From NCBI RefSeq assembly GCF_000972785.3, contig NZ_CP011253.3, positions 1,736,001 to 1,800,000 on the forward strand: a stretch of DNA of 64,000 nucleotides. Reading direction: 5' to 3'. Positions 935-5,536 of this stretch are shown here, one piece after another. Source of the DNA: Pandoraea oxalativorans (GTDB taxonomy: Bacteria > Pseudomonadota > Gammaproteobacteria > Burkholderiales > Burkholderiaceae). The position numbers and the translations under genes were made by a program. Each line of letters begins with the position of its first letter. The stretch's first letter is position 1. The notes beneath the pieces are model-generated. The model saw only the letters and a program-made list of their open reading frames with translations, did no database searches and was not told where the DNA came from.

Positions 935-1453
935 TCACTCGAGAAACGACAGGTCGGCGAAATAGCAGCGCTGCAAGGCTTTCGCAAGATAGCGCTTGAC
1001 CGTCGGAATCGAGATGCCGAGCGTGGCCGCGATCTGGGCGTGCGTTTGTCCGTCCAGCTGCGAATACAGAAACGCCTGCCGCACGATGACCGGCAGGCCG
1101 TCGAGGAGGCGATCCAGTTCCAGCAGCGTCTCAAGCATGATGGCGCGCGTCTCGGGCGACCACTCGACGTCGCGCGGCACCTGCGCGAGCGCTTCGAGAT
1201 ACGCGCGTTCGAGCTTCTGACGTCGCCAGTGATTGGAGACGAGATTCTGTGCGACCGTCGTGAGGTACGCGCGCGGTTCGTCGAACGAGGCGGGGACCCG
1301 CTCGCTGCCGAGCAATCGCACGAAGGTGTCGTGCGCTATGTCGGCGGCTTGTTCTGCACTGCCCAGACGTCGATGCAACCAGCCCTTCAACCACGAATGG
1401 TGATGGCTGTACAACATCTCGACGGTGGAGGGGAGGGTGCCCGGGGTTTGCAT
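935..1453 (-). CDS. fecI: FecI-like ECF RNA polymerase sigma factor
   Basis: The product is 172 residues, the normal ECF length. Sigma region 2 spans roughly residues 10-75 (HHHSWLKGWLHRRLGSAEQAADIAHDTFVRLL, then the PRAYLTTVAQNLVSNHWRR core-binding segment). Region 4 spans roughly 115-165 with a helix-turn-helix around HAQIAATLGISIPTVKRYLAKAL. It is followed by fecR on the same strand, giving the classic iron-starvation signalling pair. A Fur-box palindrome lies about 100 nt upstream, so expression is probably repressed by iron-loaded Fur. The FecI identity rests on the FecR neighbour and Fur site as much as on the protein itself. Confidence 0.93.
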   Translation of the reverse strand: MQTPGTLPSTVEMLYSHHHSWLKGWLHRRLGSAEQAADIAHDTFVRLLGSERVPASFDEPRAYLTTVAQNLVSNHWRRQKLERAYLEALAQVPRDVEWSPETRAIMLETLLELDRLLDGLPVIVRQAFLYSQLDGQTHAQIAATLGISIPTVKRYLAKALQRCYFADLSFLE

Positions 1454-1713: not shown

Positions 1714-1788
1714 ATGTTTGCGATGCAGCATTTATTGCTTGACGCTCCAATTTGGCCTCAGTTACCATCCGCCCTGTCTTCAATCTAA
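1714..1788 (+). CDS. Possible 24-codon leader ORF ahead of the magnesium locus
   Basis: ATG at 1714 is preceded by an AAGGAG ribosome site (ending 10 nt upstream). It opens a 24-residue frame ending at TAA 1786-1788, with three Pro codons in its second half (DAPIWPQLPSAL). It precedes a 311-nt leader with hairpins and then the small ACT-like gene. Salmonella mgtA and mgtC leaders carry short Pro-rich ORFs, so a regulatory role is possible. At this length the frame could be chance. Confidence 0.35.
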   Translation: MFAMQHLLLDAPIWPQLPSALSSI

Positions 1789-2099
1789 GGGGTTAGTCCG
1801 TGAATTCCGATGCCAGTAGTCCTCGATCTTTGATCGATTGATTGCCTGAGGATCCACAGCCTTCCCTGTGCCGCGTCCTCATGCAGGATGCGGTGTCTAA
1901 CGCCACTTGAACGCTCGCCCTGAGCGTATGTTTCCGGCGACATTCCCGCAAAAGGTTCCACTGTCGTGCCTGTGATGGGCGCTGTCGTCTTGCGCATGCG
2001 TTTCGTGCCGTGCGTTGCAACGATGCGTTCTCGCGAGCCGACCGTCCGTGCCGCGCGCTCACATGCGGCACGGACACTTCGCAGCCATGCGAGGAAATC
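1789..2099 (+). promoter_or_regulatory. Structured leader upstream of the ACT-like gene
   Basis: This 311-nt stretch holds no credible gene. It contains a nested stem, CCTG/CAGG, GAGGA/TCCTC and CACAG/CTGTG (1845-1887), and a compact ACGCTC-GCCCT-GAGCGT hairpin (1911-1927). I could not match it to an M-box or any other riboswitch consensus by eye. Its position before a magnesium-transport locus suggests a 5' UTR with regulatory structure. Confidence 0.35.
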
Positions 2100-2447
2100 A
2101 TGCGAGCTTTTCAAACCTTCCAGGCTTTTCAGAGCCAACCGACGCGCACCACACCGGTGTCGCATCTGACCATCGTTTGTCTGGCCGAGGCCCTCGGGGC
2201 CTTGCGCAAGCAGATGTTCATCGATCTCACCGCGCTCGGCCTGCGCGCCACGCACGTCAGCATCACCCGATGGAGCGATCGCGACGAGGCGTCCGCCACC
2301 GTCACGCTCGACTGCCCGCAGGGTTCGCGCGCATCGCTCACGTCGCTCGTCATGCGGCTGTCGGGCGAGTGCAGCGTGCGCCGCGTGTTCTGGTCCGACG
2401 ACGCCGCGCGTCGCGCGGCCACGACGGGCATGCCCGCGCACGCCTAG
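2100..2447 (+). CDS. Small ACT-like domain protein next to mgtA
   Basis: The start at 2100 is chosen for the GAGG site 5 nt upstream; a longer in-frame version would begin at 2010 with no such site. The 115 residues read as one beta-alpha-beta-beta-alpha-beta unit: HLTIVCL, a helix EALGALRKQMFIDLTALG, LRATHVSITRWSDR, EASATVTLDCP, a helix SRASLTSLVMRL, then CSVRRVFWSD. This order is that of ACT domains, and it resembles the C-terminal ACT-type domain of MgtC without its membrane part (my inference from pattern, not a search). With mgtA 335 nt downstream on the same strand, a role in magnesium homeostasis or in regulating the ATPase is plausible. Confidence 0.7.
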   Translation: MRAFQTFQAFQSQPTRTTPVSHLTIVCLAEALGALRKQMFIDLTALGLRATHVSITRWSDRDEASATVTLDCPQGSRASLTSLVMRLSGECSVRRVFWSDDAARRAATTGMPAHA

Positions 2448-2539
2448 TGCCGCGCGGCTGACCGGGCCGCCCCATCACTGCCGGATAACGCAACACTCGC
2501 TTTCCGGCGTACCGCATCAACGAACATAAGGAGTCCGAA

Positions 2540-2716
2540 ATGGAAGACGGAAGTAGCCGAATGTGGCCCGTCGGGACCATACCTTTGACGTATGGCTTCC
2601 CGGCGGGCGATTCGATGCCAAAACCCCATACCCGTATTTTTGCTTTCACCGACCGCGCGCTGCGCGGCGCGGCTGGGTGCGTTCGCGCTTTTTTCCGGAG
2701 AGATGACCTTCGGTAG
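2540..2716 (+). CDS. Candidate mgtA leader peptide (58 residues)
   Basis: ATG at 2540 follows an AAGGAG site with 6-nt spacing, a stronger translation start than most genes here. The 58-residue frame ends at TAG 2714-2716, 66 nt before mgtA. It contains clustered Pro codons and the stretch PKPHTRIFAF. This loosely recalls the PLPRWRIFLF end of the Salmonella MgtL leader peptide (resemblance by eye only). The coding sequence overlaps a 16-bp hairpin and a GC-stem/T6 element. This arrangement fits a translated leader controlling transcription into mgtA, though that role is inferred. Confidence 0.6.
   Translation: MEDGSSRMWPVGTIPLTYGFPAGDSMPKPHTRIFAFTDRALRGAAGCVRAFFRRDDLR
2567..2607 (+). promoter_or_regulatory. 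Long hairpin inside the mgtA leader ORF
   Basis: CCCGTCGGGA (2567-2576) pairs along its full length with TCCCGGCGGG (2598-2607), including one G-U pair. Immediately inside, CCATAC (2577-2582) pairs with GTATGG (2590-2595). The result is a 16-bp stem with a 2-nt bulge and a 7-nt loop. So perfect a stem inside a short leader ORF is unlikely to be incidental. Confidence 0.65.
2667..2694 (+). terminator. Possible intrinsic terminator/attenuator before mgtA
   Basis: GCGCG (2667-2671) can pair with CGCGC (2684-2688), which is followed directly by six T (2689-2694). It lies at the 3' end of the leader ORF and 88 nt before mgtA. The loop is long (12 nt), so strength is uncertain; alternative GC pairings are available. 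Confidence 0.4.
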
Positions 2717-2782
2717 CGACTGACGAGACCGGCCGGCCGCTCCACCCATCAGGGCAAGCGTCGGTCGCGCCAGGAACTCGTC

Positions 2783-5536
2783 ATGACAAATAACCACCGC
2801 TCCCGCCATAAGCAGCGCGGCTTCGTCGACAACGCAACAGCGTCCGACCTGCCGCTCTCGGGCCCCGAAGTCGTCGCACGTCTTGCGACCGAACCCCTGC
2901 ACCAGGTCCTGCACACGCTCGGCACCGATGTCAGCGGCCTGCCGCTCGCCGACGTCGGTCAGCGCCAGACGCGCTACGGCCCCAATGAGATCGCGCACGA
3001 CAAGCCGCCGCACTGGACGCGCCAGCTCGCGAGCGCCTTCAATAATCCGTTTGTCTTCGTGCTGCTCGCGCTCGTCACGATCAGCTTCTTTACCGACGTC
3101 TATTTCGCCGATCCGGGCGATCAGGATTACAAGGGCATCATCATCCTGTCGACGATGGTGACGATCAGCGGCCTGCTGCGCTTCTTCTCGGAGTTCCGTT
3201 CGTTGCAGGCAGCCGAGAAGCTCAAGGCGATGGTACGCACCACGGCCAGCGTGCGCCGCCGTCTGTCGGCGTCGGGCAAGTCTGAGCGTCACGAGGTCGC
3301 CATGCGCGAGTTGGTCGTGGGCGACATCGTGACGCTTCAGGCAGGGGACATGATCCCGGCCGATCTGCGTCTGATCGAATCGCGCGACCTGTTCATCAGT
3401 CAGGCCGTGCTGACCGGCGAGGCGCTGCCCGTCGAGAAGTACGACACACTGGGTGCCGTCGCACAGAAGTCGGCGTCCATCGTAGCGGGCGAGGGCAATG
3501 CCAGCCTGCTCGACCTGTCCAACGTCTGCTTCATGGGGACGAACGTCGTGAGCGGCACGGCCGTGGGCGTGGTCGTCGCCACCGGTGGCGACACGTATTT
3601 CGGCGCGCTGGCGAAGAACGTCGTGAGCCACAAGCGTGTGGAGACGAGCTTCGACCGTGGCGTGAACAGCGTGAGCTGGCTGCTGATCCGCTTCATGCTG
3701 GTGATGGTGCCGATCGTCTTCATGATCAACGGCCTGACCAAAGGCGACTGGGTCAGCGCCCTGACGTTTGCGCTGGCGGTGGCCGTAGGTCTGACGCCCG
3801 AAATGCTGCCCATGATCGTGAGCGCCAACCTCGCACGCGGCGCTTTGGCGATGTCGCGCCGCAAGGTGGTGGTCAAGCGCCTGAACTCGGTTCAGAACTT
3901 CGGTGCGATGGACGTGCTTTGCACCGACAAGACCGGCACGCTCACGCAGGACCGCATCATTCTCGAACAGCATCTGGATGTGGCCGGCGACGAGCAGGAA
4001 GACGTGTTGCGTCTGGGCTGGCTCAACAGCTATCACCAGAGCGGTCAGCGCAACCTGATCGACGTGGCGATCATCCGTCGCGCTAACGAGATCGGCGAAT
4101 CGGTGCAGCCGCGTGCGTTCGCCAAGATCGACGAACTGCCGTTCGACTTCGTGCGTCGCCGCCTGTCGGTCGTGGTCGCGAACGATCGTGGCGAGCATCA
4201 GATGATCACCAAGGGGGCCGTCGAAGAAATGCTGTCCGTCGCCACGCACGTGAAGACCCCGCAGGGTGTGCGTGCGCTCGACGATATGGCACGCGCCATG
4301 CTGATTGCGCGGGCCGAGGCATACAACGAAGACGGCTTCCGCGTGCTGGTCGTGGCCACCCGCGACATTCCGGCGGGCGAGACGAAGGCGCAATACAAGA
4401 CGTCCGACGAACGCGAACTGACGGTGTGCGGTTTCCTGACCTTCCTCGATCCGCCCAAGGATTCCGCTGCCCCGGCGATTGCTGCGCTGCGCGAGCATGG
4501 CGTGACGGTCAAGGTGCTCACGGGCGACAACCCCATCGTCACGATCAAGGTGTGCCGCCAGGTCGGGCTGGAGCCAGGCACGCCGCTGCTCGGTGCGGAC
4601 ATCGAGCCGATGGACGACGCGAGGCTGCGCGAAGTCGTGGGACGCACGACCGTGTTCGCCAAGCTCGCCCCGCTGCACAAGGCGCGCGTGGTCAAGGCGT
4701 TGCAGGCCAACGGTCACACCGTGGGCTTCCTCGGCGACGGCATCAACGACGCCCCGGCGCTGCGCGATGCCGACGTGGGCATCTCGGTGGACACCGGTGC
4801 GGACATCGCCAAGGAGACTGCCGACATCATCCTGCTGGAAAAGAGCCTGATGGTTCTCGAAGCGGGCGTGATCAAGGGCCGCGAGACGTTCGGCAACATC
4901 CTCAAGTATCTGAACATGACGGCCAGTTCGAACTTCGGCAACGTGTTCTCGGTGCTGGTGGCGAGCGCGTTCCTGCCGTGGGAGCCGATGTTGGCGATGC
5001 AGTTGCTCATCCAGAACCTGATCTACGACATCTCGCAGATGTTCCTGCCGTGGGACCGCATGGATCCGGAGTTCCTGAAGAAGCCCCGCAAGTGGGATGC
5101 CAGCAACATCCGCCGCTTCATGCTGTGGAACGGGCCGACCTCCTCGGTGTTCGACATCACGACCTACGCGCTGATGTGGACAGTCTTCGGCGCGGGGGCG
5201 CTGTATCACGCGCATGGTGGCGATGCCGGTCAGGTCATCATGAATTCGGGCTGGTTCATCGAAGGGCTCGTCTCGCAGACGCTGGTCGTGCACTTGCTGC
5301 GCACGCAGAAGATTCCGTTCCTGCAAAGCACGCCGGCGCTGCCGATCATGCTCTCGACCTCCGTCGCCATTGCGATCGCCTGCTGGCTGCCGTACTCGCC
5401 GTTCGCAGCGACGCTCGGCTTCGTCAGCCTGCCGTTCTCGTACTTCTACTGGCTCGTGGCCACCATGCTTGGATACATCGCGCTGGCGCAGATGGTGAAG
5501 ACGGTCTACATCCGCCGCTTCGGCCGCTGGTTCTGA
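2783..5536 (+). CDS. mgtA: Magnesium-importing P-type ATPase MgtA
   Basis: The 917-residue product is the usual length for P-type IIIB ATPases, which import Mg2+ across the inner membrane using ATP. Visible landmarks are the cation N-terminal domain (residues ~35-90), the actuator TGE loop (VLTGEALPVEKYD, ~212), and the phosphorylated Asp382 in CTDKTGTLTQD. The hinge motif GDGINDAP lies near 651. C-terminal membrane helices carry NMTASSNFGNVFS and LIQNLIYDISQMFLPWD, characteristic of MgtA/MgtB. ATG 2783 has an AGGA site 7 nt upstream. It follows the leader ORF and ACT-like gene, suggesting low-Mg2+ induction. A barrel protein gene follows 151 nt downstream. Confidence 0.96.
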   Translation: MTNNHRSRHKQRGFVDNATASDLPLSGPEVVARLATEPLHQVLHTLGTDVSGLPLADVGQRQTRYGPNEIAHDKPPHWTRQLASAFNNPFVFVLLALVTISFFTDVYFADPGDQDYKGIIILSTMVTISGLLRFFSEFRSLQAAEKLKAMVRTTASVRRRLSASGKSERHEVAMRELVVGDIVTLQAGDMIPADLRLIESRDLFISQAVLTGEALPVEKYDTLGAVAQKSASIVAGEGNASLLDLSNVCFMGTNVVSGTAVGVVVATGGDTYFGALAKNVVSHKRVETSFDRGVNSVSWLLIRFMLVMVPIVFMINGLTKGDWVSALTFALAVAVGLTPEMLPMIVSANLARGALAMSRRKVVVKRLNSVQNFGAMDVLCTDKTGTLTQDRIILEQHLDVAGDEQEDVLRLGWLNSYHQSGQRNLIDVAIIRRANEIGESVQPRAFAKIDELPFDFVRRRLSVVVANDRGEHQMITKGAVEEMLSVATHVKTPQGVRALDDMARAMLIARAEAYNEDGFRVLVVATRDIPAGETKAQYKTSDERELTVCGFLTFLDPPKDSAAPAIAALREHGVTVKVLTGDNPIVTIKVCRQVGLEPGTPLLGADIEPMDDARLREVVGRTTVFAKLAPLHKARVVKALQANGHTVGFLGDGINDAPALRDADVGISVDTGADIAKETADIILLEKSLMVLEAGVIKGRETFGNILKYLNMTASSNFGNVFSVLVASAFLPWEPMLAMQLLIQNLIYDISQMFLPWDRMDPEFLKKPRKWDASNIRRFMLWNGPTSSVFDITTYALMWTVFGAGALYHAHGGDAGQVIMNSGWFIEGLVSQTLVVHLLRTQKIPFLQSTPALPIMLSTSVAIAIACWLPYSPFAATLGFVSLPFSYFYWLVATMLGYIALAQMVKTVYIRRFGRWF

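Follow-up and report, generated by a model that had tools for sequence, protein, structure and literature searches.

The window, the whole 64,000-nt stretch of Pandoraea oxalativorans DNA that was analysed, carries on its plus strand a gene for a 917-aa Mg2+ P-type ATPase (2783–5536; NF011702, 1593.7 bits), preceded by a standalone gene for a 115-aa MgtC/SapB C-terminal (ACT-like) domain (2100–2447), with a short leader ORF in front of each. The pump, 99% identical to named Pandoraea pumps, had been called MgtA in the initial annotation. A maximum-likelihood tree of 38 ATPases places it in a 28-row clade (100/100) with one ATPase of genome G473 (L200); the other ATPase of that genome (L174) and L175, both behind MgtL-like leaders, lie in a separate seven-row clade, together with L139, the second Mg2+ ATPase of the window's genome. 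Because it stands apart from these mgtL-led ATPases, the window pump is called mgtB-type here, a name that we assume from the leaders seen, the tree holding no named MgtB reference.

The 115-aa product matches PF21770 weakly (24.8 bits, E 3.3e-5, under the cut-off of 27), and the same family appears in the precomputed annotation of 6 of its 16 homologues, the named ones all from Pandoraea. The gene once taken for an ACT-domain addition is related to the C-terminal domain of MgtC and is therefore not foreign. It would form one putative operon with mgtB, each gene having its own leader. By eye, no MgtC_C-like ORF lies upstream of mgtB in three Burkholderia loci; one or two MgtC_C/ACT-like small ORFs are seen by eye upstream of the mgtB leader in L046, L057 and L065, and Pfam assigned no family to those of the two loci tested (L046 and L065). 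At 1545–1570 the window also holds a Fur-box-like sequence, TTAATGATAATCATTATTAAT, upstream of a divergent FecI-type sigma factor gene (935–1453, minus strand).

Upstream of the MgtC_C-like gene, a 24-codon ORF had been noted at 1714–1788. This frame is open in the window, but only 5 of 16 aligned rows keep its ATG, and it overlies a promoter-like site, TTGACG-N18-TACCAT (1739–1768, plus strand); it was rejected as a gene and replaced by a conserved leader ORF at 1800–1841, which the first reading had missed. A promoter consensus scan found 2 sites with 0.4 expected, and TTGACG-N18-TACCAT is conserved in an alignment of 15 Pandoraea loci and the window, so that transcription may start near 1775. 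The ~130 nt directly after the 1714 ORF are highly conserved in 14 aligned rows, and BLAST finds the DNA of 1769–1912 in 14 of 150 family genomes, all Pandoraea. Leader ORF 1 (plus strand; conserved in Pandoraea) reads MNSDASSPRSLID from a GTG start behind a Shine-Dalgarno-like AAGGGG (1787–1792; TGGAGG in L122 and L123), and around it lies a conserved structured RNA (1785–1905) belonging to no Rfam family. The window fold of 1775–1912 has a z of −2.47, with 1 of 200 shuffles as good; alignment A5 of this RNA holds 30 pairs, one with a two-sided change. In the divergent loci L122 and L123 leader 1 reads, by eye, MNTDASCSR... ahead of a similar ACT gene; in L122 (G030) a response regulator gene and a histidine kinase gene come next in place of mgtB. 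We regard leader 1 as a second leader of the same style as the one before mgtB, serving the MgtC C-terminal-domain gene within that putative operon. No Rfam family scores above its gathering score in 1400–2900; a c-di-GMP-II riboswitch match at 2666–2743 (27.2 bits vs a cut-off of 40) was rejected as chance.

An acidic leader ORF upstream of mgtB

Leader ORF 2 (2540–2716, plus strand; MEDGSSRMWP...) runs for 58 codons behind the Shine-Dalgarno sequence AAGGAG (2528–2533); both the ORF and its strong ribosome site had been recognized in the initial annotation and are confirmed. In 66 of 80 mgtB relatives (the best 80 kept of 184 candidate loci), the 520 nt upstream of mgtB hold a Shine-Dalgarno-led short ORF in which residues 2–6 include two or more acidic ones. 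Control scans found such ORFs in 6/80 loci on the antisense strand, 8/79 further upstream and 2/80 downstream, and another scan of the same best 80, which required a stricter ribosome site and searched a shorter range, found 58. Background acidic starts among Shine-Dalgarno-led short ORFs amount to 5/60 and 34/502. The leader begins MEDGSSR in Pandoraea, MNSDDSSR in Burkholderia, MESDSSR in Castellaniella, MTDDSYP in Chromobacterium haemolyticum, MNDDSYP in a Neisseriaceae, MEDDSEG in Collimonas, MPDEP in Iodobacter, MDDYPSR in Mesorhizobium, MTEEPKPRP in Aeromonas and, behind a weak ribosome site, MEEASSR in a Pseudomonas MAG.

The 14 loci of the best 80 that gave no match in the acidic-ORF scan come from Paraburkholderia (L040), five Chromobacterium species, Xenophilus (L041), Comamonas (L045), four Achromobacter, Iodobacter (L069) and Rhizobium (L080). 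The Xenophilus locus has MTEEPEPEP with a ribosome site outside the scan spacing, and the Iodobacter start, MPDQP, has one acidic residue. Five Chromobacterium loci (L042, L043, L044, L049, L051) show AGGAG-N5-ATG-ACA (or CCA)-TAG upstream of mgtB (240 nt in L042) and no acidic leader; this two-codon ORF with its strong ribosome site is followed by a large hairpin-like repeat. Five Paraburkholderia loci (L033–L036, L052) have a short acidic ORF of the MPDSDSCPL type farther upstream and a second ORF nearer mgtB, MHFALLVPELP... or MYFALLVSQLPQVREPHHYY...; a related ORF is also present in L037, L040 and L068, and an ORF of ~66 codons before the MgtA-type ATPase L139 (MFRYSMTLRGG...HHYH...) resembles this second ORF by eye.

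A wider survey of Mg2+ ATPase loci of the order and phylum (57 of 77 parsed, 20 left out for having too little coding sequence) found acidic short ORFs in 11 of the 57, some with TTG starts. These include the MgtL-like leaders of L174 and L175 (MDPDPTPHP and MEPDPSPDP), MgtB-type rows, and L180, L184 and L185. The last three have Shine-Dalgarno-led acidic ORFs, MALDDDDQPEP..., MDPDPAGRT... and MDSDLSRACRLL, before MgtA-like ATPases ~51% identical to the window pump. The acidic leader is thus commoner at MgtB-type pumps, but not necessarily confined to those. At L147 and L176 the scan missed the leader owing to a misplaced pump start, and it is visible by eye. A class-wide protein search of 369 genomes, run with an over-strict E cut-off, returned the window's own gene alone.

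What is conserved in the leader changes along its length. Codons 2 and 3 (Glu and Asp; 2543–2548) are acidic in 27/27 Pandoraea leaders, all of which share Arg7 and Pro10. Of these leaders, 18 carry the conserved DNA of the ORF end in frame 0, five in frame 1 and four in frame 2, and the peptide end also differs between genera. With a constant acidic start and end DNA in all three frames, the start is thus preserved at the level of the peptide and the end at that of the nucleic acid: reading-frame conservation holds at the start of the ORF and fails at its end. The tail PKPHTRIFAF, once likened to that of MgtL, is found in the window only, with PEPHTRIFAF in L082 and L083; what the peptides have in common is their acidic start, not this tail or the clustered prolines previously singled out. 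The window leader itself has two acidic residues only and no alternating proline.

Leaders are 37–59 codons long in Pandoraea, Burkholderia, Chromobacterium, Collimonas, Castellaniella, Iodobacter, Mesorhizobium and Pseudomonas, and 17 codons in Aeromonas, where the stop lies 206–218 nt before mgtB. The stop-to-mgtB distance is 44–55 nt, with leaders of 37–52 codons, in the Burkholderia, Chromobacterium, Collimonas, Castellaniella, Neisseriaceae, Iodobacter-type, Mesorhizobium and Pseudomonas loci measured, and 59–72 nt in Pandoraea (97 nt in L060); the mgtB start was set by a script rule except in Pandoraea and most Burkholderia loci, and Paludibacterium L053 (29 codons) was left out. In Aquitalea L057 no leader stop was found before mgtB. 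Rare-codon slowing was given little weight: P is ~1e-4 at the start of one Burkholderia leader and 0.006 for leader 1, and in the window leader 0.096 for the start and 0.031 for the remainder.

Paired elements of the leader

Hairpin H1 (2566–2608, plus strand) lies inside leader ORF 2; first described as a 16-bp hairpin at 2567–2607, it is upheld with 17 pairs. Compensatory changes in the stem are present: six pairs change on both sides somewhere in 27 Pandoraea leaders, and all 35 two-sided changed cells counted over H1, H2 and H3 fall in H1. Against 500 shuffles, the Pandoraea covariation score and cell count for the three helices together are reached by none and the pair count of six by 29. 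Across 23 leaders from eight named genera, the lower nine pairs are 92.5% formed and five are changed on both sides, with score and cells reached by 0/500 shuffles and the pair count by 24/500; L078 and L062, partly misaligned in this alignment (A6), were kept in the count of 23. The mean folding z of H1 is −2.7 in 16 Pandoraea, −4.1 in 25 Burkholderia and −2.7 in 14 other leaders. The Burkholderia helices are nearly invariant, their covariation score being reached by 74/500 shuffles and that of H3 by 500/500. By eye, H1 starts ~10 to 19 nt after the acidic codons, roughly as far on as the mRNA entry site of a ribosome.

H2 joins the end of the leader ORF to the stretch before mgtB. Its 5' arm, GGCGCGGCT (2666–2674, plus strand), lies in the 3' end of the ORF and is 97.9% paired with only one-sided G-U changes; in the Pandoraea leader alignment the 3' arm, GGTCGCGCC (2763–2771), abuts the mgtB Shine-Dalgarno sequence AGGA (2772–2775). 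H2 pairing exceeds that of shuffles in 12 of 20 representatives (P≤0.02), and in Pandoraea it is not above shuffles (z 0.6, −1.6 and −0.1 in three representatives; group mean −0.8). A further candidate, H3 (2721–2783), pairs TGACGA (2721–2726) with TCGTCA (2778–2783) around the mgtB ribosome site; it is 100% paired and has no covariation support because five of its six pairs never vary. The H2 and H3 candidates overlap. Folding under ribosome masks gave no consistent change in mgtB ribosome-site access between ribosome positions, and pairing of this site with the H2 3' arm region is mostly not above shuffles (mean z −0.89; P<0.05 in 4/20).

The leader 2 stop codon (2714–2716) folds just 3' of an apical hairpin in the window. 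It sits in a hairpin loop with a probability of at least 0.93 in 16 of 20 representatives, the exceptions being the window, L012, L039 and L076, the average being 0.16 across all positions and 0.22 for shuffled sequences; representatives that share a genus are not independent. By genus, the stop is in the loop in Burkholderia (4/5), Chromobacterium (3/3), Collimonas (2/2), Iodobacter-type loci (3/3) and the single Castellaniella, Neisseriaceae and Pseudomonas loci, in one of three Pandoraea, and not in Mesorhizobium. As judged by sequence comparison, then, the leader has a conserved ORF start with acidic residues and H1, joined in most relatives by the stop position and in most representatives outside Pandoraea by H2.

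A candidate Mg2+-sensing mechanism and its rivals

On balance, it seems probable that 2520–2783 is an mgtQ-like regulatory leader of mgtB, in which low Mg2+ aborts ribosomes at the acidic codons and H2 then favours mgtB. Ribosomes would start at 2540 and the nascent chain would begin acidic, M-E-D in the window and D-D, D-E or E-E in relatives. At low cytosolic Mg2+ the acidic chain would destabilise the ribosome, leading to abortion within the first codons, with H1 at about the mRNA entry site hindering ribosome advance. The ORF end, left free, could then pair with the sequence just before mgtB as H2, which would free the mgtB ribosome site and/or hide a C-rich Rho entry region, permitting mgtB expression. 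When Mg2+ is plentiful, the ribosome would read to the stop at or near the H2 tip and keep the 5' arm open; an alternative state (H3 over the mgtB site and/or Rho) would lower expression. We infer translation itself, Mg2+ as the signal, ribosome abortion, the sign of the switch and its level, be it translation or Rho termination. Impeded ribosomes or drop-off may be expected in the window leader because an acidic start is reported to impede translation in mgtQ (PMC8092293) and to make ribosomes drop off in MgtL (PMC11282234). The structured leader controlling a Mg2+ pump, as initially proposed, is thus well supported by comparison as a conserved structured ORF, to be read as putatively translated and regulatory, and loses its MgtL-type details.

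Two features, the nearly uniform distance from stop to mgtB in most genera measured and the placement of the stop in a hairpin loop, would also fit a termination-coupled opening of opposite sign. Here a ribosome that completes the leader would halt ~50 nt upstream of mgtB, melt the structure around the mgtB ribosome site and so increase mgtB translation, or reinitiate; the acidic codons would only set how many ribosomes arrive. Removal of the mgtQ start lowers mgtB in Salmonella, as this coupling would have it, but acidic codons there lower mgtQ and raise mgtB (PMC8092293 for both), and, if low Mg2+ aborts translation, such coupling would lower the pump when Mg2+ is scarce; we consider it unlikely. 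Somewhat less doubtful, though still no better than a tentative option, is an MgtL-like version of the preferred mechanism, in which completed translation would open a C-rich stretch behind the leader stop to Rho, and abortion would let H2 hide it. MgtL works in this way (PMC11282234), and C exceeds G between the leader stop and the mgtB ribosome site in 17 of 20 representatives, including 3/3 Pandoraea and 5/5 Burkholderia; yet the excess is small in Pandoraea and reversed in L048, L062 and L078, and mgtQ, the positional match, acts on translation only (PMC8092293).

Classical attenuation at an intrinsic terminator would use a GCGCG-loop-CGCGC stem followed by T6 (2689–2694, plus strand). The stem and T6, pointed out in the initial annotation, are indeed there, and at least five T in eight occur in 25 of 27 Pandoraea leaders by eye (23 by pattern count). 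Terminator-like sites in 1400–2900, both strands, are however not above chance, since 2 were found vs 1.3 expected from shuffles. A T-run of at least five, seen in 18 of 27 Pandoraea leaders by eye (17 by pattern count) and lost in L103, is absent from all 24 Burkholderia leaders, which otherwise have a common layout with those of Pandoraea, and the T-tract is thus not a shared device. Such a terminator would also act in the wrong direction for a pump that is required when Mg2+ is low, and this reading is quite improbable. A functional small protein encoded by the leader ORF, comparable to the regulatory peptides of the operon in Salmonella, would suit its strong ribosome site and long open frame, but a peptide end read in three frames in Pandoraea and differing between genera leaves that idea with hardly any credibility.

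The reach of the putative mgtQ-like leader was traced with a covariance model built from the leader start and H1. The model matches one place in the window's genome and 70 places in 67 of 299 family genomes (one false by eye), in 2 of 25 genera: Pandoraea, and Burkholderia as judged from sequences. The rejected match (L239 in G025, which is included in the 67) lacks an ATG where the leader should start and by eye runs antisense to another gene. Own locus aside, 29 of the 70 places were fetched (L207–L235), and an mgtB relative lies just downstream in 29/29. A class-wide covariance search matched 5 of 229 genomes; four of these matches are marginal and could have arisen by chance.

Three Burkholderia-type genomes (G936, G941, G966) have a second leader copy with H1 (L236, L237, L238), which starts MDDDSSR and stops 48–49 nt before a 46–48-aa ORF, upstream of a cluster of 2OG-Fe(II) oxygenase-like, DUF47 and PHO4-family phosphate transporter genes; Pfam identified the oxygenase in L236 and the DUF47 and PHO4 genes in L238, and the third genome was assigned by sequence likeness. 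The copy and the cluster may share one transcript. One may speculate that the leader is a portable ribosome-based Mg2+ module, with an acidic nascent peptide as sensor, an entry-site hairpin as hold and a stop at a hairpin tip as read-out: it would serve beta-, gamma- and alphaproteobacterial mgtB, occur twice, in two forms, in the Pandoraea cluster, and have moved before the PiT cluster in some Burkholderia-type genomes, tying phosphate uptake to the Mg2+ state. The PiT-cluster copy would make a link between Mg2+ and phosphate balance testable.

Relation to known Mg2+ leaders

Leaders that act by destabilising the ribosome have been characterised in detail in E. coli and Salmonella. In a literature search with few subscription papers in its scope, none of the papers listed deals with such a leader outside these two, to judge from titles and opening lines of abstracts, and none of the papers covered treated mgtA, leader peptide and Burkholderia together. 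A conserved, covarying version across several proteobacterial families would make nascent-peptide Mg2+ sensing a general strategy of MgtB pumps, and its natural variants could be used for testing which parts matter: acidic codons, codon-hairpin distance, or the stop inside a hairpin.

Like the 5' region of E. coli corA (PMC11552253), the window leader is proposed to control a Mg2+ transporter. Leader ORF 1 (1800–1841) precedes an MgtC-family gene, as do mgtM and mgtP of the Salmonella mgtCBR operon, but MNSDASSPRSLID has neither AAA nor PP, unlike the adenine stretches of mgtM and the consecutive prolines of mgtP (PMC3641672). MgtL of enterobacterial mgtA shares with leader ORF 2 an acidic start before a Mg2+ P-type ATPase, and low-Mg2+ abortion as the proposed sensor (PMC11282234). 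It serves MgtA-type ATPases, however, whereas the window pump is MgtB-type and lies in the other clade (100/100), and it combines alternating acidic residues and prolines with a Rho-dependent terminator, whereas MEDGSSR has no alternating proline.

The best parallel is therefore not MgtL, as first thought, but mgtQ, which occupies the mgtC-mgtB gap in Salmonella. Both leaders lie between an MgtC-family gene (in the window, an MgtC_C match just below the cut-off) and mgtB, and both have a strong Shine-Dalgarno sequence, acidic codons within the first five (Glu2 and Asp3 in the window), a proline codon inside the first stem (Pro10, 2567–2569) and an ORF overlapping stem-loops that adjoin the mgtB ribosome site (PMC8092293). 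The window leader differs in having 58 codons instead of 8, although mgtQ length varies (PMC8092293), in holding both H1 arms inside the ORF, with the stop in a hairpin loop in most leaders of its kind, and in following an MgtC part that is the C-terminal domain only. The mgtQ stems are mutually exclusive, one hiding the mgtB ribosome site; here the H2 and H3 candidates overlap and folding gives no clear switch. The orthologues named in the mgtQ paper are enterobacterial, with an mgtQ-like ORF before Brucella mgtB and none from betaproteobacteria (PMC8092293). Judged from its sequence, the window leader looks like a longer, more widespread cousin of Salmonella mgtQ control.
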